Assembly (NCBI GenBank): GCA_944390005.1
Contig: CALXOJ010000001.1
Location: forward strand, 208,363-272,362
Origin: an uncultured Spirochaetota bacterium
Lineage (GTDB): Bacteria > Spirochaetota > Spirochaetia > JAFGXN01
Length of the DNA stretch: 64,000 nucleotides
Direction: 5' to 3'
The position numbers and the translations under genes are program-made. The notes under the pieces are model-generated. The model was not told the origin of the DNA and did no database searches. It saw nothing but the letters and a program-made list of their open reading frames with translations. The first letter of the stretch is position 1. Every line of letters begins with the position of its first letter. Shown piece by piece: positions 34,330 to 44,113 of the stretch.

Positions 34330-35817
34330 ATGGGAAGTTTTTCGGCTCATCTCAATCCGCAGGCGTTTTTTCGGCGGACAATTATTTTTACGATTGTCTC
34401 ATTGATTGTTTTGTTTGTCTCGAGTTTAACACTGTTTTTGATATCGGCGAAAGGAACGAAAGCGCTTTTTATCGGAATTCCGGTTGAAAGGATTGACGAT
34501 TGGATTCACTTTGCAGATGAAAACGGTATTTCCTATATAACAACGGACGGAATCGTTGTTCGGTTGGATCATTATAATCCCGAACAGCTGACAGTCGATG
34601 AATTAAAAGAGCGGTTTTTGCCGGATGACGATCGGTTCACTCCGTTTTTGAAAGAATTGCCAAAGCTTTTTGATTACGAAAGCGATGGTCGGAAAATGCG
34701 GTTGATTATCTTGGAAAAACCTTTTCCTTTTGAGCAATTGCGGAAGTGGGATGAAACAGCTTCCATTGGGTTGATGTTTGCCGGTGATTCGCAATCGAAT
34801 TTGTTTGAACGAATTTTCTTTTTTTCAGTGACGCTCGCCTGCTTTGCCCTTTCGGTCGCGATTCAACGGAAAGCACGCTTTGGATTAATTTTTCTGGCAA
34901 CGGTTTTTGCCGCGGTTTTTTTGTCCGGCAGTCTCCTTGTTTTAAACGCGGCGGTTTTTATCGGCAATGTGTTTTTAGCCTTGTGGAGGAAGTGGCAGCC
35001 GCACCGCGAGTATTTTATTGTTTACGGTGAGGATTTATTGGAACGGCGAGATAAAATTTTTATCGGAGTGGAGGCGGCAGCGGCGGTTTGCTGTGCTGCC
35101 GTTCCGCCGTTTTGGTTTCCGGGAGAGCGTTTGGCATCGGTTGCGGCGATCGCGATGGCATGCTTCGGAATTTTTTGGGGTGCGGCGGTTGTGTTTCGAG
35201 CGATGTCCCAACCCAGAAAATTTCATTTTGTGATGAGACCGTTGATCGGGCAATCTTATAAATTGCCGTTTAAATCAGCCGGAGTTGAAATTGCGCTGGG
35301 ATGTGTTGCGGCAGTCATTCCGTTGGTTTCGTTGCTCTTTTTTCGGACTCCGTCGATCGAGACGCCTCTTCCTTCCGCCCCCCTTTCATTTGATTCAATT
35401 TCATATGAAGAAATTTATGAAGAGGCTCAAAATCAACCGCGGGGAACCTTAAACGCTGTCGGTTACCTTGAAGAAAAGGTGTTTCAGTACTGTTATCGTT
35501 ATGAAAAATTGGAACGCTTGCCGCCGCCAGGATATGAGGTGACGGTTCCGCGCTTTTTTTATGATGCGAATTCCGTTCAAAACGAAAAAATCACAATTGA
35601 AATATTTACAGAAGACGGTTTCAAGAGTATAATAGAAAAAGTCAAATCAGATCCGCTCTCTGTTTATTTTAGCGGAGGTTTGATTGCTCCCGGAGCCGCG
35701 CCGAAGGCTTACGCGGTTTGGATTGTTGCTTCGGCTTTCTATTTTATACTGTTAATGCCGTTTTTTCGAATCTCTGTTAAGAAAAATCGGATTTTCGAAT
35801 ATAAGGGAAGAGTATGA
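34330..35817 (+). CDS. Polytopic membrane protein, first gene of the rnf operon
   Basis: The product has 495 residues. Membrane segments are near residues 14-37, 160-178, 184-220 (probably two), 237-255, 262-290, 315-335 and 460-480. An extracytoplasmic domain (about 40-150) lies between the first two. A second soluble stretch (about 340-455) precedes the last helix. I recognise no family. It overlaps rnfC by 4 bases (ATGA), so it is translated with the complex. It may be an assembly factor or extra subunit of the Rnf complex; that is inference from position. Start by promoter and absence of a better ATG. Confidence 0.65.
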   Translation: MGSFSAHLNPQAFFRRTIIFTIVSLIVLFVSSLTLFLISAKGTKALFIGIPVERIDDWIHFADENGISYITTDGIVVRLDHYNPEQLTVDELKERFLPDDDRFTPFLKELPKLFDYESDGRKMRLIILEKPFPFEQLRKWDETASIGLMFAGDSQSNLFERIFFFSVTLACFALSVAIQRKARFGLIFLATVFAAVFLSGSLLVLNAAVFIGNVFLALWRKWQPHREYFIVYGEDLLERRDKIFIGVEAAAAVCCAAVPPFWFPGERLASVAAIAMACFGIFWGAAVVFRAMSQPRKFHFVMRPLIGQSYKLPFKSAGVEIALGCVAAVIPLVSLLFFRTPSIETPLPSAPLSFDSISYEEIYEEAQNQPRGTLNAVGYLEEKVFQYCYRYEKLERLPPPGYEVTVPRFFYDANSVQNEKITIEIFTEDGFKSIIEKVKSDPLSVYFSGGLIAPGAAPKAYAVWIVASAFYFILLMPFFRISVKKNRIFEYKGRV

Positions 35818-37136
35818 GATTGCGTTTAAAAACTTTCGGAAGAGGCGGTGTTCACCCGGACGATAAAAAGAGTTTGGCGGCGGAACGTCCGATCTGCAAC
35901 AGTTATTTCGGACAATGGGCCATCATTCCGATGGGGCAGCATTTGGGAGCGCCGGCTGAGTGTCTCGTTCAGCCGGGCGATACGGTGGCGGAAGGAGAGT
36001 TGATTGGACGGGCGAACGGATTGATTTCCGCTCACGTTCATTGTCCGTTTCCCGGCGTCGTCGAAAAAATCGAATCTCTGACATTACCCAATGGTTCATC
36101 CAGCCAGGCTGTTTATTTAAAGATTGAAGGCTTCTTTGAATCTGTTGAAGATGAGCGGATTAATGACAGGTGGGTCGGTTTATCCCGAGAGGAATTGACA
36201 GGGCAGATTCGGGAAGCCGGTTTGGTCGGTTTGGGCGGTGCGGCTTTTCCCGTTCACGTTAAAATTGCTGTGCCGAAGGGAAAGAAGGCTGAATATTTGA
36301 TTATTAACGGCGTTGAATGCGAACCGTATTTGTGTGCCGATTATCGCATTATGATTGAATATACCGACAAAGTCTTGGAAGGTATCGATATTTTGGCTCA
36401 AATTACGGAGGCGGACAAGGTAATCATCGCCGTTGAGGCCAATAAGCCGGAAGCTGTTCGCAGATTGCGCGAAGCGATAGTGCATTCAAAGCGGCCGTAT
36501 ACGGTAGAGATTTTGAAAGTCCGTTATCCGCAGGGCGACGAAAAGCAGCTGATTCAGGCTTTGATTGGAAGAGAGATTCCTTCCGGCGCACTGCCGATTG
36601 ATGTCGGCTGTGTGGTTTGCAATGTTGCGACAGCCAAGTCGGTTTTTGATGCCGTTGTTTTAAAGCGGCCGCTGACGGAGAGAATCGTGACCGTTTCCGG
36701 AGGAGCAGTCGGTGAACCGGCGAATCTGAAAACGCGCATCGGTGTGCCAATCCGGGATTTGTTGACCGAATGCCAAACTGATTTTTCGAAGGTTGAAAAG
36801 ATTGTCGTCGGAGGACCGATGATGGGTTTTGCGGTTGCCGATTGGGATACGCCTGTCACAAAAGGTACCGGCGGCGTTTTGGCTTTGACCGCCAAGGAGG
36901 TTCGCAATAAGCCTCAAACCGCATGCCTTCACTGCGGCAGTTGTGTTTCCGTCTGTCCGATGGGGCTGCCGCCGGCAATGATGTACAAACTGATTCAGGC
37001 CGGAGAGTATGAAAAAGCAGCGGCGGTCGGATTGCCCGACTGTAAGGAGTGCGGTTGCTGTGCTTACGCTTGTCCGGCAGGCATTTATCTTGTGCAAGCC
37101 TTCAAAAAAGGGAAAAGAATGGGGAGAAAGAAATGA
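35814..37136 (+). CDS. rnfC: Rnf complex subunit C (NADH-binding, iron-sulfur)
   Basis: The product has 440 residues. The complex couples electron transfer between ferredoxin and NAD+ to ion (Na+ or H+) pumping. The N-terminal domain (about 1-110) is a biotinyl-like fold. A flavin/NADH domain follows, with GLGGAAFPVHVKI (about 138-150) and INGVECEPYL. Two [4Fe-4S] motifs are C-terminal: CLHCGSCVSVCP (about 371-382) and CKECGCCAYACP (about 410-421). It overlaps its neighbours on both sides by four bases. Confidence 0.93.
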   Translation: MRLRLKTFGRGGVHPDDKKSLAAERPICNSYFGQWAIIPMGQHLGAPAECLVQPGDTVAEGELIGRANGLISAHVHCPFPGVVEKIESLTLPNGSSSQAVYLKIEGFFESVEDERINDRWVGLSREELTGQIREAGLVGLGGAAFPVHVKIAVPKGKKAEYLIINGVECEPYLCADYRIMIEYTDKVLEGIDILAQITEADKVIIAVEANKPEAVRRLREAIVHSKRPYTVEILKVRYPQGDEKQLIQALIGREIPSGALPIDVGCVVCNVATAKSVFDAVVLKRPLTERIVTVSGGAVGEPANLKTRIGVPIRDLLTECQTDFSKVEKIVVGGPMMGFAVADWDTPVTKGTGGVLALTAKEVRNKPQTACLHCGSCVSVCPMGLPPAMMYKLIQAGEYEKAAAVGLPDCKECGCCAYACPAGIYLVQAFKKGKRMGRKK

Positions 37137-38284
37137 AACAGGAAAAGCAGGAATTTCAATTTTCGGTCGCCTCTTCTCCTCAGATTCGAACTCCGCGTTC
37201 GACGGCTCGAATCATGATGTACGTGATTTTGGCGCTGCTTCCGGCAGCGCTGTGGGGCGTGTATCAGTTCGGATGGTACGCAGCGGCGGTTCTGGCCGTT
37301 TCCATTGCGGCGGCGGCAGCAGGCGAGGGAATTTTATGCCTCATCCGAAAAAAAAATACGCTGTCCGACGGCTCAGCTGTTCTGACAGGATTGCTGGTCG
37401 GAATGAACATGCCTCCGTCGGTTCCGCTTTACATTCCCGCGGTTGCCTCGTTGGCGGCGATCATTGTTTTTAAAGGCGCGTTCGGCGGTTTGGGCTGCAA
37501 TATCATTAACCCCGCTTTGGGAGGGCGGCTTATTGCGTTTTTTTCGTGGTCGTCGGCAATGTTTACTTTTCAGACGCCGCGTACAATTTTGGAATCGGGC
37601 GTCACCGTCGCCGGCGCAACGGGAGATGCGATGACTTCGGCCACTCCGCTGACATTTCTGAAAAGCTCAGTCCCCGAATATATCGGTTCGATTGCCAATG
37701 AGATGGAGGTGTTTTCGCTGAAGCATTACTCGCTTTCCGAATACGATGTCGCCGTCACCGACAAAATCAACTCGCTTTTCGGTGAAAATTTTTGCTACGG
37801 CTATTTTGACGCGTTTTTCGGTATTAAAGGCGGCTGTATCGGGGAAATTTCAACGTTTTTGCTTCTGTTGGGAGGATTGTTCCTGATTGCGAAAAAAATC
37901 ATTCACTGGGAAATTCCGGCTGCATTTATCGGTTCGTTTGCGGCGGCCGTTTGGGTTTTCGGGGGATTGCGCGCGGGAACCGGCTTTTTCTCCGGCGACG
38001 TAATCTATCAGATTTTCAGCGGCGGTCTTTTCCTCGGCGCTTTTTTCATGGCAACCGATATGGTGACATCTCCGTTTCGCCGCGGTTCGATGATTCTTTT
38101 CGGTATCGGATGCGGTCTGCTGACTTTTCTGATTCGATTTTACGGATCTTTTCCGGAAGGAGTTTCATTGGCGATTGTTTTCATGAATTTGACCGTACCG
38201 ATGTTGGATCGGCTTTTTATTCCCCGCCGTTATGGAGTTAAAAAGAAGCGCAGGGTTGGAGTCGGAAAAGGAGGCAATGCATGA
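37133..38284 (+). CDS. rnfD: Rnf complex subunit D (flavinylated membrane subunit)
   Basis: The product has 383 residues from the ATG at 37133 (ATGA overlap with rnfC); upstream frame is not used. About nine membrane helices. The covalent-FMN motif appears as GDAMTSATP with Thr171 the likely attachment site. FGGLGCNIINPALGGR (117-132) is a family hallmark. Works with RnfG in periplasmic-side flavin transfer. Next gene overlaps by 4 bases. Confidence 0.92.
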   Translation: MKQEKQEFQFSVASSPQIRTPRSTARIMMYVILALLPAALWGVYQFGWYAAAVLAVSIAAAAAGEGILCLIRKKNTLSDGSAVLTGLLVGMNMPPSVPLYIPAVASLAAIIVFKGAFGGLGCNIINPALGGRLIAFFSWSSAMFTFQTPRTILESGVTVAGATGDAMTSATPLTFLKSSVPEYIGSIANEMEVFSLKHYSLSEYDVAVTDKINSLFGENFCYGYFDAFFGIKGGCIGEISTFLLLLGGLFLIAKKIIHWEIPAAFIGSFAAAVWVFGGLRAGTGFFSGDVIYQIFSGGLFLGAFFMATDMVTSPFRRGSMILFGIGCGLLTFLIRFYGSFPEGVSLAIVFMNLTVPMLDRLFIPRRYGVKKKRRVGVGKGGNA

Positions 38285-38940
38285 AACTGACGAAAGCCGA
38301 TCAATTGGAAATCCTGCGAATTTCAGGAACGCTGGCGCTGATTTGCGCGGCGGCTGCTCTGCTTTTGGGCTTTGTTTACAAGTTTACAAAACCGCTGATC
38401 GACCGCAATACGGAGCTGTCAACCGAACAGTCGCTGAATGCGTTGGTCAACGGAGGCAATGAAAGCATCGACACGTATTACGCTGTCGGTTTCCATAAAA
38501 TCGAGACGCGTGCCAAAAACCCAAACGGCAGTGCTTCCGTTCGCAACGGACGTTCCGTTGAAAACCGCGCCGGTATCAGCCGGATTTACAACGTGTATGA
38601 CGGCGGGCAGATGCTCGGTTATGTGCTGGAGTTGACCGGAAAGGGATACGGCGGCGATATGCTGATTTTGGCGTATTACGCGCCGGACGGAAGTGTGAAA
38701 GACGCGATGGTTGTCAGCGACTCTGAAACGCCCGGAATCGGAAAAAAAGCGGCGCTTCCCGGCTATATGGATAAATTCAAAGGATTCGGATCTTCCGGAA
38801 AGCCGGTTCCGCAAAGCCGCGAAGAGCTGCCGAAATCGGAATCCGATGCAGTGGCCGGCGCCACTGTGACTTTTAAGGCCGTGGCAGCCGCATTGGCTTC
38901 GGGAGCCGCTTTTATCGTTGAAGGAGGAGCCGATGATTAA
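38281..38940 (+). CDS. rnfG: Rnf complex subunit G (periplasmic flavoprotein)
   Basis: The product has 219 residues. One N-terminal membrane helix (about 15-37) anchors an FMN-binding domain. The flavinylation motif near the C-terminus reads DAVAGATVTFKAV (about 191-203); the Ser usual before GAT is Ala, but the modified Thr is present. ETPGIGKKA earlier is typical. It overlaps rnfD and rnfE. Confidence 0.9.
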   Translation: MKLTKADQLEILRISGTLALICAAAALLLGFVYKFTKPLIDRNTELSTEQSLNALVNGGNESIDTYYAVGFHKIETRAKNPNGSASVRNGRSVENRAGISRIYNVYDGGQMLGYVLELTGKGYGGDMLILAYYAPDGSVKDAMVVSDSETPGIGKKAALPGYMDKFKGFGSSGKPVPQSREELPKSESDAVAGATVTFKAVAAALASGAAFIVEGGADD

Positions 38941-39583
38941 AGAACTGACGAAAGGAATTTTTCGCGAAAATCCGGTTCTGATGCTGCTTTTGGGATTGTG
39001 TCCGACCTTAGGCGTTTCCGGAAAGTTTTTTAACGCCATCGGTATGGGGCTCGGTGTTATTTTTGTTTTGGTTTGTTCAAACGCTGTCATCAGCCTGATG
39101 AAAAAAATCATTCCGAATCAGGTGCGTATTCCCGGTTATATTGTCATTATCGCAACGTTTGTTACAATTGTCGAATTGATGCTGCGCGCGTTTTCGCCGG
39201 TACTGTACAGCGGATTGGGAATTTTTATTCCGCTGATTGTCGTTAACTGCATCGTTTTGGGACGAGCCGAAGCGTTTGCCGGAAAGAATAAACTTCTTCC
39301 GTCGATTTTGGACGGTTTGGGGATGGGAATCGGTTTCACGCTTTCGTTGATGCTGATTGCGTTTATTCGCGAAATTTTGGGCGCCGGAACGCTGACGCTT
39401 TGGGAATCGGGATCGACTGTTTACCGCTTCGTCATTCCCGGATTGAGCGAAGCGCCGGTTTCGGTTCTGGCTACGCCGGCCGGAGCACTTTTTGTGGTCG
39501 GCTTTGTGATAGCCGGCATCAATGCTATTAAACAGTACCGCAATCGCCCCGGTAAAGCTGCCCGGAAAGGAGCTTCCGTATGA
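38933..39583 (+). CDS. rnfE: Rnf complex subunit E
   Basis: The product has 216 residues from the ATG at 38933, which has AAGGAGG 6 bases upstream; the upstream in-frame TTG is not needed. Six membrane helices. Family pieces: NPVLMLLLGLCPTLGVS (about 12-28), IPLIVVNCIVLGRAEAFA. RnfE pairs with RnfA, each giving half of a membrane iron-sulfur site; the Cys of GLCP and of NCIVLGR are kept. Confidence 0.93.
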   Translation: MIKELTKGIFRENPVLMLLLGLCPTLGVSGKFFNAIGMGLGVIFVLVCSNAVISLMKKIIPNQVRIPGYIVIIATFVTIVELMLRAFSPVLYSGLGIFIPLIVVNCIVLGRAEAFAGKNKLLPSILDGLGMGIGFTLSLMLIAFIREILGAGTLTLWESGSTVYRFVIPGLSEAPVSVLATPAGALFVVGFVIAGINAIKQYRNRPGKAARKGASV

Positions 39584-40179
39584 TGAATTTGGTTGTCATT
39601 TTCTTTTCGTTTGTATTGGTCAACAACTTCATTTTATCGAAATTTATGGGGCTTTGCCCGTTTATCGGAGTTTCCCGCAATCGGGAGTCGGCAATCGGAA
39701 TGGGTTTTGCTGTTATTTTTGTTATGTCGATTACTTCGGTATTGACGTGGGTTATATATCACGGAATTCTGGCACCGCTGGGAATCGAATTTCTGAAAAC
39801 CATTGTCTTTATTTTGGTAATTGCTTCTTTGGTTCAGCTGGTTGAGCTGGTGATCCGTAAATTTTCACCGGCGCTTTATAAAGCTCTGGGAATTTATCTG
39901 CCTCTGATCACGACAAACTGTGCGGTTTTGGGAATCGCCATTATCGCGGTCGACGAAAATTATGGACCTCTGGAGTCGCTTGTGGCCGGAATGTCCGGCG
40001 GAATCGGATTTTTGATGGTATTGATCATCATGTCGTTTTTAAGGCAGAAGCTGTCGCTGGAAAAGGTTCCGGCGCCGTTTAAAGGGGTTCCGATTGCGTT
40101 TGTTACGGCCGGCGCTATGGCTTTGGCGTTCATGGCGTTCAGCAGCTCCATGATTACCAATCTGTTTCCGGTAGAGTGA
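39580..40179 (+). CDS. rnfA: Rnf complex subunit A
   Basis: The product has 199 residues with six membrane helices. FVLVNNFILSKFMGLCPFIGVS (about 9-30) and ITTNCAVLG (about 108-116) hold the conserved cysteines of the intramembrane cluster shared with RnfE. It starts 4 bases before the rnfE stop and is 9 bases before rnfB. Confidence 0.93.
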   Translation: MMNLVVIFFSFVLVNNFILSKFMGLCPFIGVSRNRESAIGMGFAVIFVMSITSVLTWVIYHGILAPLGIEFLKTIVFILVIASLVQLVELVIRKFSPALYKALGIYLPLITTNCAVLGIAIIAVDENYGPLESLVAGMSGGIGFLMVLIIMSFLRQKLSLEKVPAPFKGVPIAFVTAGAMALAFMAFSSSMITNLFPVE

Positions 40180-40188
40180 GGGCGGCGT

Positions 40189-40995
40189 ATGAGTTTTCTG
40201 ATTCTGTTTGCATCCGTCATGATTGTGTTAGCCGTCGGACTTCTGCTCGGCTTTATCATTTCGCTTGCGTCGCACTTTTTGTCGGTTCCGAAAGAAGAAC
40301 GGATTGAACAAATCGAAGAGCTTCTCCCTGGAGCGAATTGCGGAGCCTGCGGTTTTGCCGGCTGCGCCGCTTACGCCGAGGCGATTGTTTTAAACGGCGC
40401 TCCTTTAACGCGGTGCACGTCGTTAAACGCCGACGGACTGCAAAAAATCGGTGAAATTATGGGGCAAAAAGTAGAAGCGCAGACGGAGCCGGAAAAGGCC
40501 TTCATCGCCTGTCACGCCGCACCGTTTGACAAAGAGGCAACTCAATTCCTTTACGGCGGTTTGGCTGACTGCAACAGCCGTGCTCTTTTTTACAAAGGTC
40601 CGAAAAAGTGCAAATACGGCTGCCTTGGAGGCGGTAGTTGTATCGAAGTTTGTCCCGTCAACGCTATTTATCGCGATAAACGAAATCGGGTTGTCATCGA
40701 TCGGAAAAAGTGTATTTCCTGTTGGAAGTGTCTCGAAGTGTGTCCGATGAATGTCATTCGCATGATTCCCGAATCGGCGAATTACGCGGTAGCGTGTTCC
40801 CATCCCGGGAAAGGCGTGCAGACGAAAGCGGATTGCGGCGTCGGTTGTCTGGGATGTTCTTTATGCGTCAAAAATTCTCCCGAAGGCGGATTTTTCATGG
40901 ACGGTTTTTTGGCAAAAATCGATTATACCTGCTCCGGGGATCGGGCAAAAGCGGCGGAAAAGTGCCCTGTTCACTGTATTGTCGAGATAAAGTAG
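40189..40995 (+). CDS. rnfB: Rnf complex subunit B (ferredoxin-type electron entry)
   Basis: The product has 268 residues. An N-terminal membrane helix (about 3-25) is followed by the CGACGFAGC cluster motif (about 51-59). Two ferredoxin-like pairs are visible: CIEVCP and CISCWKCLEVCP (about 185-195), and another, CGVGCLGCSLCVKN, near 215. It accepts electrons from ferredoxin. It completes the order C-D-G-E-A-B. Ion specificity cannot be read. Confidence 0.93.
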   Translation: MSFLILFASVMIVLAVGLLLGFIISLASHFLSVPKEERIEQIEELLPGANCGACGFAGCAAYAEAIVLNGAPLTRCTSLNADGLQKIGEIMGQKVEAQTEPEKAFIACHAAPFDKEATQFLYGGLADCNSRALFYKGPKKCKYGCLGGGSCIEVCPVNAIYRDKRNRVVIDRKKCISCWKCLEVCPMNVIRMIPESANYAVACSHPGKGVQTKADCGVGCLGCSLCVKNSPEGGFFMDGFLAKIDYTCSGDRAKAAEKCPVHCIVEIK

Positions 40996-41005
40996 GAGAA
41001 CAGGT

Positions 41006-42961
41006 GTGAGCAACGTTCGTTTGATTGTAGGACTGCATTTTTCTCTGCCTCCATGTTTCAAAGAGTCGGAAGCGGAAGAACTTTATCGGCAATCCGTTTT
41101 TCCTTTAATCGAACTGTTGCTGCGATTCCCGAAATTCAAAGTGACGCTTTATTTCAGCGGCAATTTGATGGCGTGGCTGAAAAAGCGGCATCCTGAGAGT
41201 TTGCTTCAGTTGCGGACCTGTTGCTCCAAACATAAACAAATCGAATTTCTTTCAAACGGATACTATGAACCGCCTCTGCAGCTGATTTCGCGCCGCAGCT
41301 GCGCATATCAAATCGAAAAACACTTTACCGCTGTCAGAGATTCGGTCGGTAAAGGCATCCGTCCGAAAGGGTTTTGGCTGAACGACGGAAATTGGGAAAC
41401 GTCGTTTCCGTCAATTTTAAGCGCGATGGGATTTCTTTATACGTTCATCGACGATTCGGTTATCCGTGCCTGTGGGTTTTCTCCGAAAGATATGTTTGAC
41501 GTTTTTGTGACTGAAGAGCAAGGTCATTCACTGCATCTTTTTCCGATTATCGAATCGCTTTCGAGTCCGTTTTGCAAAGTCCCCGTTAACGGTTACGTTG
41601 ATAATTTGAGTCGGCTAAGTTCCACTTGTCATGATGATACGGTAACAGTTTTTAAAAACGGATTCTCATTGAATGCTGCCGATTATGAGTGGATGGCCCG
41701 CTTTATCGGATTGTGCGGTGACGCCTCACTTTTTTTTGCGCATCCGGGGAATGTTATCAAAAAAGCAAAAGATTTGAAATTGGTATATATTCCGGATTCC
41801 GTCGGCGACGAGTGCGCCGGCAGAATGTTTTTTGACGGACAGTGGCGCAATTATGATCTTTTTTCCCGTCAATTTGATTCCACCGACTGCAAAACGCTGT
41901 TCAGACGGGGGGCTTTCCGCAACTTTTTAATTAAATACCGAGAATCGGCTCATCTCTATCATCGTATTCGTTACATCGAGGCGTATTTGAAAACCCTTCC
42001 GAAAGTTGAGCAAAAACAGTGTGCCGACGTTTTGGCGGAAGGACAGACTGCCTATCCGATGCGCAAAGCTGATGACGCCGGCGTTTTTGATGCGGCCGCG
42101 CGTCAAAAATCGTACACAGCGTTGATTTCGATTGAGAAGGTTTTGAAAAAAAACGCCGCTGTTAGAGAAATCGATTTCGACAACGACGGGTTGACCGAAA
42201 TTTTTCATTATGGACCGACACTGCTTGCTCTGTTTCACCGAAAAGGAGCGTCGATCCGCGAATTGGACTACCTGCCGTCGTCGTTTAACTACGTCAATAC
42301 TTTTTGTGATTATGACGAAAATTGCGAATTCAGTCGGTTTTTACGACGCGGCGCCGCCTGTTTTCAAGATTTTTTCATTCTTTCGGAGGATTACGGGAAA
42401 GTCGACAGAGTGTTGGAACCGTCTGCGTTTCAATATGATTTAAGCGATTTTTCCTATGAGTCAGAATCGATTAATGAAGCAAAACGCGTTTTGCGGTTTG
42501 CGCTTTCGCTTCCCGATAACATCGAGATGAGTAAGGATTACCTTCTCAAACGTAACGATGTAACTGTCGAATATCGTTTTGACAGCACAGGAAATCAAAA
42601 TCTTTCCCGGTATTTCGGAACAGAGCTCAATTTGTCCTTCAGCGACTGTTCTCTCTGTTCGGCCGAAGTTTTCGAGTCTCAGGATCTTCATCCGCTCGAT
42701 CAAACACATCGTTTTAGCCGACCGAAGAGTTTGAAGCTCAATGACGGCGCAAACGACACAACGCTGACTTTGAGTTTTTTCGGCGCACCGTGCGATGTTT
42801 TTATGATGCCGATTTACGCTGAAACGGACGTTTTTGGAGAGCGGCGTTCTTTGTATCAGCATGTTTCCGTTAAGATTGTTTGGGAGCTTGATTTAAAGGC
42901 CGAGTCCTCATGTTTTTTCGGTGTTGCTCTGAATATTGTCCGATCTGTTGCCCGCGGTTGA
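41006..42961 (+). CDS. GH57-family protein, probably catalytically inactive
   Basis: The product has 651 residues from a GTG 10 bases after rnfB. The whole layout follows GH57 4-alpha-glucanotransferases with DUF1925/1926-type C-terminal domains. Matching landmarks are VTLYFSGNLMAWL (46-58), NGYYEPPL, KGFWLNDGNW (121-130), YTFIDD, LVYIPDS and NFLIKYRESAHLYHR. Key residues differ. The N-terminal HxHQP-type motif is HFSLP. The nucleophile motif WLTERVW is WLNDGNW, with Asp127 in place of Glu. The acid/base motif FxDDGEKFG is FKNGFSLN (216-223). So transglycosylation is unlikely; carbohydrate binding may remain. Its position suggests co-transcription with rnf. Confidence 0.7.
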   Translation: MSNVRLIVGLHFSLPPCFKESEAEELYRQSVFPLIELLLRFPKFKVTLYFSGNLMAWLKKRHPESLLQLRTCCSKHKQIEFLSNGYYEPPLQLISRRSCAYQIEKHFTAVRDSVGKGIRPKGFWLNDGNWETSFPSILSAMGFLYTFIDDSVIRACGFSPKDMFDVFVTEEQGHSLHLFPIIESLSSPFCKVPVNGYVDNLSRLSSTCHDDTVTVFKNGFSLNAADYEWMARFIGLCGDASLFFAHPGNVIKKAKDLKLVYIPDSVGDECAGRMFFDGQWRNYDLFSRQFDSTDCKTLFRRGAFRNFLIKYRESAHLYHRIRYIEAYLKTLPKVEQKQCADVLAEGQTAYPMRKADDAGVFDAAARQKSYTALISIEKVLKKNAAVREIDFDNDGLTEIFHYGPTLLALFHRKGASIRELDYLPSSFNYVNTFCDYDENCEFSRFLRRGAACFQDFFILSEDYGKVDRVLEPSAFQYDLSDFSYESESINEAKRVLRFALSLPDNIEMSKDYLLKRNDVTVEYRFDSTGNQNLSRYFGTELNLSFSDCSLCSAEVFESQDLHPLDQTHRFSRPKSLKLNDGANDTTLTLSFFGAPCDVFMMPIYAETDVFGERRSLYQHVSVKIVWELDLKAESSCFFGVALNIVRSVARG

Positions 42962-43003: not shown

Positions 43004-44113
43004 GTGCTGGATGATCTCAAAGCAGCGGTTCGTTCTCTTGGAACAAAAATTGATGAAATTCGAGGGGATCTTGATTTATCCGTATCTGAAGCAAAAATCG
43101 CAGAGAAAGAAGCGCTGACATGTGCGCCCGATTTCTGGAATGATCGGGAAAAGGCTGAAGCTGTTCTAAACGAATTGACGGCAATGAAAAAACGCGTCGA
43201 ATCCTGGAAAAAACTGTTTGGCGATTACGACGACATCATCGAGCTTCTTCAAATGGCGGAAAGCGACAGCGACCCGTCGTGGCAGGAGGAGTTGAGCCGT
43301 TCTTTGTCTGCGGCTGAAAAATTATATGAAGAGCTGCGATTGATTGAACTGCTTAACGGTGAATTCGATCGGGCGGATGCGTATTTGACCATCCATTCGG
43401 GAGCCGGCGGAACGGAGGCGTGCGATTGGGTTTCCATGCTTTACAGGATGTATTTGCGGTGGACCGAAATGCGCGGCTACAAGACCGAATTGCTGGATAT
43501 TTTGGAAGCCGAAGGCGGATTAAAATCGGTGACGGTTCAGATCAAAGGTCTTTACGCTTACGGTTACCTGAAAGGCGAGACCGGTATTCACCGCTTGGTG
43601 CGCATTTCGCCGTTTGATTCCAACGCGCGCCGTCATACGTCGTTCGCCTCTGTTTTTGCTTCACCCGTCATGGATGAAAACATTGAAGTCGACATCCGCC
43701 CCGAAGATTTACGGATCGACACCTACCGTTCGTCGGGCGCAGGCGGTCAGCATGTCAACACGACTGATTCCGCCGTTCGAATCACCCATTTGCCGACAGG
43801 AATTGTCGTTCAGTGCCAGAATGAGCGCAGTCAAATCAAAAACCGTGCGACAGCCATGAATATGCTCCGTTCGCGGCTTTACGATCTTTACAAAAAAGAG
43901 CAGGACGAAGAACGGGAGAAGCAAAACGGCGAGAAAAAAGAGATTTCTTGGGGAAATCAAATCCGCTCGTATGTGTTTCAGCCGTACACAATGGTCAAAG
44001 ATCATCGTACAAAGTACGAAAAAGGCAATATTCAAGCGGTGATGGACGGAAACATTACCGAATTTATGGAAGCGTTTTTGAAATGGGACGCTAAGGGAGA
44101 GTCGGTCGGGTGA
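43004..44113 (+). CDS. prfB: Peptide chain release factor 2, without programmed frameshift
   Basis: The product has 369 residues in one frame from a GTG that follows GAGGTG. It ends translation at UGA and UAA. The stop-recognition tripeptide SPF (202-204) marks RF2, and GGQ (248-250) is the hydrolysis motif. Most bacteria need a +1 frameshift near codon 25; here CGA GGG GAT CTT GAT (codons 20-24) runs through without it, resembling that site minus one T. So the UGA-based feedback is absent. The end overlaps the next gene by 4 bases. Confidence 0.95.
   Translation: MLDDLKAAVRSLGTKIDEIRGDLDLSVSEAKIAEKEALTCAPDFWNDREKAEAVLNELTAMKKRVESWKKLFGDYDDIIELLQMAESDSDPSWQEELSRSLSAAEKLYEELRLIELLNGEFDRADAYLTIHSGAGGTEACDWVSMLYRMYLRWTEMRGYKTELLDILEAEGGLKSVTVQIKGLYAYGYLKGETGIHRLVRISPFDSNARRHTSFASVFASPVMDENIEVDIRPEDLRIDTYRSSGAGGQHVNTTDSAVRITHLPTGIVVQCQNERSQIKNRATAMNMLRSRLYDLYKKEQDEEREKQNGEKKEISWGNQIRSYVFQPYTMVKDHRTKYEKGNIQAVMDGNITEFMEAFLKWDAKGESVG

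Follow-up and report, generated by a model that had tools for sequence, protein, structure and literature searches.

A GH57 glucanotransferase relative that has lost its catalytic residues accompanies rnf in Spirochaetia and may serve the Rnf complex

Why does a relative of a sugar-transferring enzyme, stripped of its catalytic residues, stand directly behind the genes of an ion-translocating complex? The question is raised by a stretch of 64,000 nucleotides from an uncultured Spirochaetota bacterium (GenBank assembly GCA_944390005.1, contig CALXOJ010000001.1, positions 208,363 to 272,362), hereafter the window. In it, rnfB is followed by a gene for a 4-alpha-glucanotransferase-like protein of family GH57 that lacks the catalytic residues (41006..42961, + strand, 651 amino acids). 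Comparison across the class indicates, as the most economical reading of the sequences, that the fold has been kept, not the reaction, and that it has been kept together with Rnf. We put the probability that the protein acts in the cytosol without catalysis, as an accessory or assembly factor for Rnf, at roughly one half.

The gene and its active site

The GH57-like gene begins with GTG, 10 bases past the rnfB stop, and its frame is open over 651 codons plus the stop codon. A likely ribosome-binding site, AGGAGA (40994..40999, + strand, found by eye), overlaps the rnfB stop codon. Pfam recognizes the GH57 domain (3.3e-16) together with the middle (3.6e-06) and C-terminal (8.2e-14) AmyA/4-alpha-glucanotransferase domains, the same three that occur in all 25 family members scanned. 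The sole match in the PDB at E <= 0.001 was the Thermococcus litoralis 4-alpha-glucanotransferase (1k1w, E 4.8e-29), against which a profile built from 25 family members aligned over 655 of its 674 positions (E 2.4e-131). Thus, the first-pass annotation was right to describe an intact 651-codon frame colinear with 4-alpha-glucanotransferases and placed behind rnfB. Upstream lie rnfC-D-G-E-A-B, and prfB lies downstream. AlphaFold2, run on a two-row alignment of the window protein and locus L034, returned a mean predicted local distance difference test score (pLDDT) of 29.6 and a predicted template modelling score (pTM) of 0.22, values too low for the model to be of use. No relatives of the protein were found in the viral contigs scanned.

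Alignment to 1k1w localizes the changes to three conserved sequence regions (CSRs); catalytic residues are given in Thermococcus litoralis numbering. At the CSR-1 position, HFSLP (residues 11-15; 41036..41050, + strand) replaces HNHQP, so that His11 is retained while His13 has become Ser. In CSR-3, WLNDGNW (residues 124-130; 41375..41395, + strand) stands for WLTERVW, which places Asp127 at the position of the nucleophile Glu123 and also replaces Arg124. In CSR-4, FKNGFSLN (residues 216-223; 41651..41674, + strand) takes the place of FHDDGEKF, whereby Asp213 has become Lys217 and the acid/base Asp214 has become Asn218; the alignment offers no acidic residue at the acid/base position of the window protein. 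All three substitutions had been noted beforehand from the letters alone, and each holds against 1k1w. Of the marks of an active GH57 4-alpha-glucanotransferase, the protein therefore carries the domains and lacks the CSR-3 Glu, the CSR-4 Asp, and the CSR-1 HxHQP. The copy in a sister species (L005/L034), 86% identical, shows the identical three changes, which consequently are not sequencing errors. Nei-Gojobori dN/dS (nonsynonymous over synonymous rates) between the window and this sister species is 0.090 for the GH57-like gene, close to the 0.119 of rnfB; the remaining rnf genes range over 0.019-0.070. Purifying selection acts on the GH57-like gene, which is no pseudogene. Together, these data support the view that the window encodes a catalytically broken relative of GH57 glucanotransferases, from an intact gene placed with Rnf.

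Catalytic loss and rnf linkage across the class

The protein query gave matches in 53 of 60 relatives, and a profile matched 254 of the 297 genomes of the class. Neighbourhoods were fetched for 96 loci at about one to two per genus, and 16 more were added along with the loci from the protein search; the sampling favours the best matches, with some 30 loci being top hits of the protein search and the others hand-picked at the same one to two per genus. We counted 120 clade members after removal of duplicates and of split and partial frames (L, G, and f numbers denote our loci, genomes, and family-level groups). The rows dropped were L009 (a TAG in frame), L031/L132 (one gene with a split frame), the partial L033 and L129, the duplicates or pieces L003, L034, L035, and L036, and further L143, L144, and L148, of which L143 and L144 belong to a different GH57 branch. 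Twelve sequences served as outgroup: 1k1w, the second copy present in genome G111 (L088), and ten homologues of full length taken from the phylum's other classes (L133-L142).

Loss of the active site is widespread in this clade. Glu123 is kept in 52 of the 120 members and Asp214 in 35, with neither residue in 56, and Glu, Asp, and His13 occur together in only four (L052, L056, L057, and L062). In contrast, the three residues are present in all 12 outgroup sequences; the neighbourhood could be read for 11 of these, and in no case does the gene lie beside rnf. Motif patterns divide the two groups in the same manner (HxH in 7/120 against 12/12; [DE]DGE in 3/120 against 12/12). A count of 82/120 for a loose nucleophile-motif pattern was set aside because this pattern also matches elsewhere, and the alignment counts were used instead. 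Genome G111 contains both kinds, an intact, rnf-unlinked gene (L088) and an rnf-linked one without Asp214 and His13 (L087). The survey of spirochaete GH57 proteins proposed in the first-pass annotation finds residue loss in other lineages as well, with different replacements: the nucleophile has become Gly, Asp, Ser, Asn, Ala, Lys, Tyr, or others, varying between and even within families. As the replacements differ among lineages, the catalytic site looks to have been released repeatedly rather than exchanged for a new shared catalytic set.

The split between clade and outgroup is supported at 100/100 in a 57-row mixture-model tree and by an SH-like approximate likelihood ratio test (SH-aLRT) value of 100 in a 132-row tree. 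The fewest changes at Glu, Asp, and His number 16, 23, and 11 in the 132-row tree and 7, 13, and 7 in the 57-row tree, counts that are rough owing to some long branches, the window's included; the three catalytic columns were excluded from tree building. With Glu present in the outgroup and in the deepest rows of the clade, the catalytic-site changes are for the most part best read as losses.

The linkage to rnf extends over the same clade. An rnf gene lies immediately upstream on the same strand in 108 of the 120 members, and this arrangement is represented in 36 of the 40 family-level groups and in 91 of the 102 genera. Hence the placement with an energy-conserving complex, at first taken to be unusual, is the rule of the class. 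The upstream neighbour is rnfB in 74 cases, rnfA in 30, rnfD in three, and RnfC-like in one (L021/L146, a weak match, E 2e-6); because it varies between members, the GH57-like gene can be said to keep to the cluster even where the layout of the cluster changes. The median distance to the stop codon of the upstream rnf gene is 18 bases, 60 of the 99 measured gaps fall between -20 and +30, and many of the genes overlap; such close spacing suggests that translation is often coupled to that of rnf. Rnf family genes were present in every gene-bearing genome searched for them, which was a part of the genomes.

Conservation in the clade has its focus outside the catalytic pair. The top columns (window numbering) are K510, D390, R111, F453, E104, W130, D455, G173, N428, and E80, with identities among the 120 members of 100% for K510, 97% each for D390, R111, and F453, and 96% for E104, whereas Glu123 and Asp214 rank 316 and 335 among 641 columns. 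Unlike the intact outgroup enzymes, the clade conserves E104, T107/T108, R111, R119, G173, Y318, and F453; at residue 107 the window protein itself deviates from the clade. A DxDxDGxxE loop of predicted Ca2+-binding type, DFDNDGLTE in the window (residues 390-398; 42173..42199, + strand), recurs in 88 of 120 clade members and six of 12 outgroup rows, compared with 0.05 occurrences per 120 shuffled proteins.

Within the window, the rnf cluster lies entirely on the + strand. By Pfam and NCBIfam it comprises rnfC (35814..37136), rnfD (37049..38284 as listed, the true start perhaps lying further in), rnfG (38281..38940, with an FMN_bind domain and 84 bits, under the NCBIfam rnfG cut-off of 102), rnfE (38918..39583), rnfA (39580..40179), and rnfB (40189..40995). 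The gene after the GH57-like one, prfB for release factor 2 (43004..44113, + strand), is judged a bystander. Directly 5' of rnfC, a 495-amino-acid protein (34330-35817) has no Pfam or NCBIfam match and is 55% identical to its sister-species counterpart over the part compared, far below the rnf genes.

Other Rnf loci of the class show features of their own. Upstream of the GH57-like gene in L097 (G075, probably Treponema pallidum), Pfam recognizes rnfC and rnfD and gives no match at the G, E, and A positions; the E and A genes were detected only by class-built profiles. The f38 genomes G109, G137, G131, and G253 have four to five RnfD/NqrB-family genes each, and where the loci were read, for two of the genomes (L049 and L054), the GH57-like gene is adjacent to no such gene. 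In f20, whose small genomes look like those of Borreliaceae, proteins of about 770 amino acids match RnfD/NqrB weakly (PF03116, E 1e-9 to 1e-16). They occur in G021, G043, G060, and 12 further genomes, for the most part around 67-80 kb on contig 1, and possibly represent an overlooked enlarged RnfD relative. The most diverged clade member, in L128 (G168; L128:1393-3132), falls under the Pfam GH57 cut-off (E 6.7e-4) and adjoins a HAD hydrolase gene.

The genome of the window holds two more GH57 genes. On contig C1, at about 36 kb (L001:1483-3048), a branching-enzyme-type protein with a BE_C domain reads WLPDMGY, with Asp at the position of the branching-enzyme Glu, which makes it the second GH57 protein of this genome to have Asp in place of the nucleophile. 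Head to head with it, at about 34 kb (L002:109-2376), the third is joined to DUF3536, reads WLAETAV, and seems to keep the Glu.

Candidate roles and their rivals

Retention beside rnf in 36 of the 40 sampled families, combined with repeated loss of the catalytic site, points to a helper of Rnf. On the favoured explanation, an ancestor of the class would have recruited a GH57 4-alpha-glucanotransferase to its rnf operon, and the protein would have become a non-catalytic cytosolic accessory of the ion-translocating complex. Produced together with Rnf, it would dock on the cytosolic face and serve the complex in assembly, stability, or regulation, of which assembly or stability appears likelier than regulation. 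RnfB and RnfC are the cytosolic subunits of Rnf and the likeliest contacts; because about one quarter of the members follow rnfA rather than rnfB, RnfB may not be the sole partner. Tentatively, and with less than even confidence, we extend this to a wider proposal: Rnf of Spirochaetia might possess a seventh component, a glucanotransferase-fold pseudoenzyme bound to its cytosolic side, perhaps via a Ca2+-stabilized C-terminal domain, that would be required for assembly or regulation, including in the divergent Rnf of Treponema pallidum.

Several findings weigh against a role in Rnf and bear on the unlikely, if serious, alternative that a protein of GH57 descent, with a task of its own in the cytosol, remains beside rnf merely through slow change of gene order. 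Gene order can persist by itself: prfB, although not known to be connected with Rnf, is the next gene in 27 of 119 rows, and in three rows (L120, L121, and L128) the GH57-like gene stays with prfB after losing rnf, which lies elsewhere. Twelve of the 120 members are not beside rnf (11 with enough upstream sequence, and L016 at a contig end), among them the members of f8, f27, and f38 and some of f9, f24, f28, and f42. Each of these 12 nevertheless has Rnf family genes at another place in its genome; G295 gave no match to PF03116 but one to PF02508, at a contig end. Conversely, families f10, f15, and f21 have PF03116 but no match to the GH57-like clade. Evolutionary rates covary with those of rnfB at partial correlations of 0.55-0.57 in 66 loci, a suggestive level, that drop to 0.16-0.30 in 34 and 0.22-0.25 in 19, and with the prfB control at 0.02 to 0.37 in the two smaller sets, so this covariation is not used as support. 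Two further points against a purely non-catalytic helper lie in the pocket, where 23 of 120 members retain both catalytic residues and the 93% retention of Glu79 indicates that some constraint persists. What speaks for a tie to Rnf over mere gene order is that, of these 119 rows, 107 show adjacency to rnf and only 27 have prfB next, that overlapping or nearly overlapping starts are common, and that the adjacency persists over different cluster layouts.

The remaining explanations concern the pocket. The first-pass annotation favoured glycan binding or sensing, and a barrel that binds maltodextrin or another sugar and reports to Rnf would fit the retention, among the 120 members, of Trp126 (95%), Trp120 (71%), Tyr356 (63%), and Trp357 (57%) alongside Glu79, as well as the glycogen synthase and phosphorylase of the window's own genome. 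However, other outgroup-invariant residues are mostly lost (Trp221 kept in 6%, Trp313 in 3%, Arg124 in 10%, His11 in 21%, and His13 in 17%), and in the window Tyr356/Trp357/His358 read Met/Arg/Lys. Moreover, among 36 genomes searched, PF08323 (starch/glycogen synthase) was found in 33 and PF00343 (phosphorylase) in 34; G075 and G013 lack both, and the GH57-like gene is nonetheless retained there beside rnf. Because the residues for substrate binding are mostly lost too, glycan sensing does not explain the protein best, and we regard it as improbable. An enzyme of altered chemistry, which would use other residues of the same pocket on a different substrate, could draw on the conserved Glu79 and Trp126, and some of the members with both catalytic residues may remain active; the replacements at the two catalytic positions vary, though, and bring no new conserved acid there, which leaves this a quite improbable option. 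That the window protein is an ordinary active 4-alpha-glucanotransferase with Asp127 as its nucleophile is very improbable: Asp does serve as nucleophile in other retaining glycosidases, but here the acid/base Asp has become Asn, and His13 and Arg124 are replaced as well. Decay or a sequencing artefact, to which the long branch might point, deserves almost no credence given the open frame, the low dN/dS, the identical changes in both species, and retention over the depth of the class.

Relation to known systems

Compared with the Thermococcus litoralis 4-alpha-glucanotransferase (PDB 1k1w, 1k1x, and 1k1y), the family is colinear over its full length with the same Pfam domains; it differs in that the GH57-like protein is without Glu123, Asp214, His13, and most of the cleft aromatics, and in being encoded with rnf. 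Catalytically incomplete GH57 proteins were already named '4AGT-like' in 2018 (Martinovicova and Janecek, PMC6037648), and very likely these include members of the rnf-linked clade. The available parts of that paper make no mention of Rnf, and their uses of 'spiroch' are confined to the Spirochaeta thermophila amylopullulanase and one reference. Accordingly, the incomplete enzymes as such are known, and we found no paper linking them to Rnf: full-text searches, with most subscription papers outside their coverage, returned no literature tying Rnf to a glucanotransferase or GH57. A 2025 RNF/NQR review uses none of the words spiroch-, Treponema, and accessory, and in the part available of a paper on NQR evolution, Spirochaetes are named once, in a table. 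A helper of this kind would escape notice, since annotation by fold makes it an amylase or glucanotransferase. If the favoured explanation holds, the parts list of the Rnf pump changes, and such genes should not be tallied as starch enzymes of spirochaete genomes.

Rnf has other helpers that, like the proposed one, are encoded by single genes, and neither of the two considered here, Ftp/ApbE and RseC, is known to be of GH57 fold. Ftp/ApbE is a periplasmic flavin transferase (PMC4767422), and autotrophic growth of C. ljungdahlii is reported to require RseC (PMC9124969). Rnf, in a divergent form, has been proposed as a redox pump that contributes to powering ATP synthesis and motility in T. pallidum (PMC7512555).

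The nearest functional parallel comes from transporters. In rBAT and 4F2hc, the heavy subunits of heteromeric amino acid transporters, an ectodomain of alpha-amylase fold aids the stability and trafficking of the transporter (PMC8537225). They offer a precedent for how a helper of Rnf might work, with no homology claimed, and they differ from the GH57-like protein in being of GH13 fold, extracellular, membrane-anchored, and vertebrate. After rBAT and 4F2hc, the GH57-like protein would, if it does serve Rnf, be the second instance of an amylase-type fold in the service of a membrane transporter.
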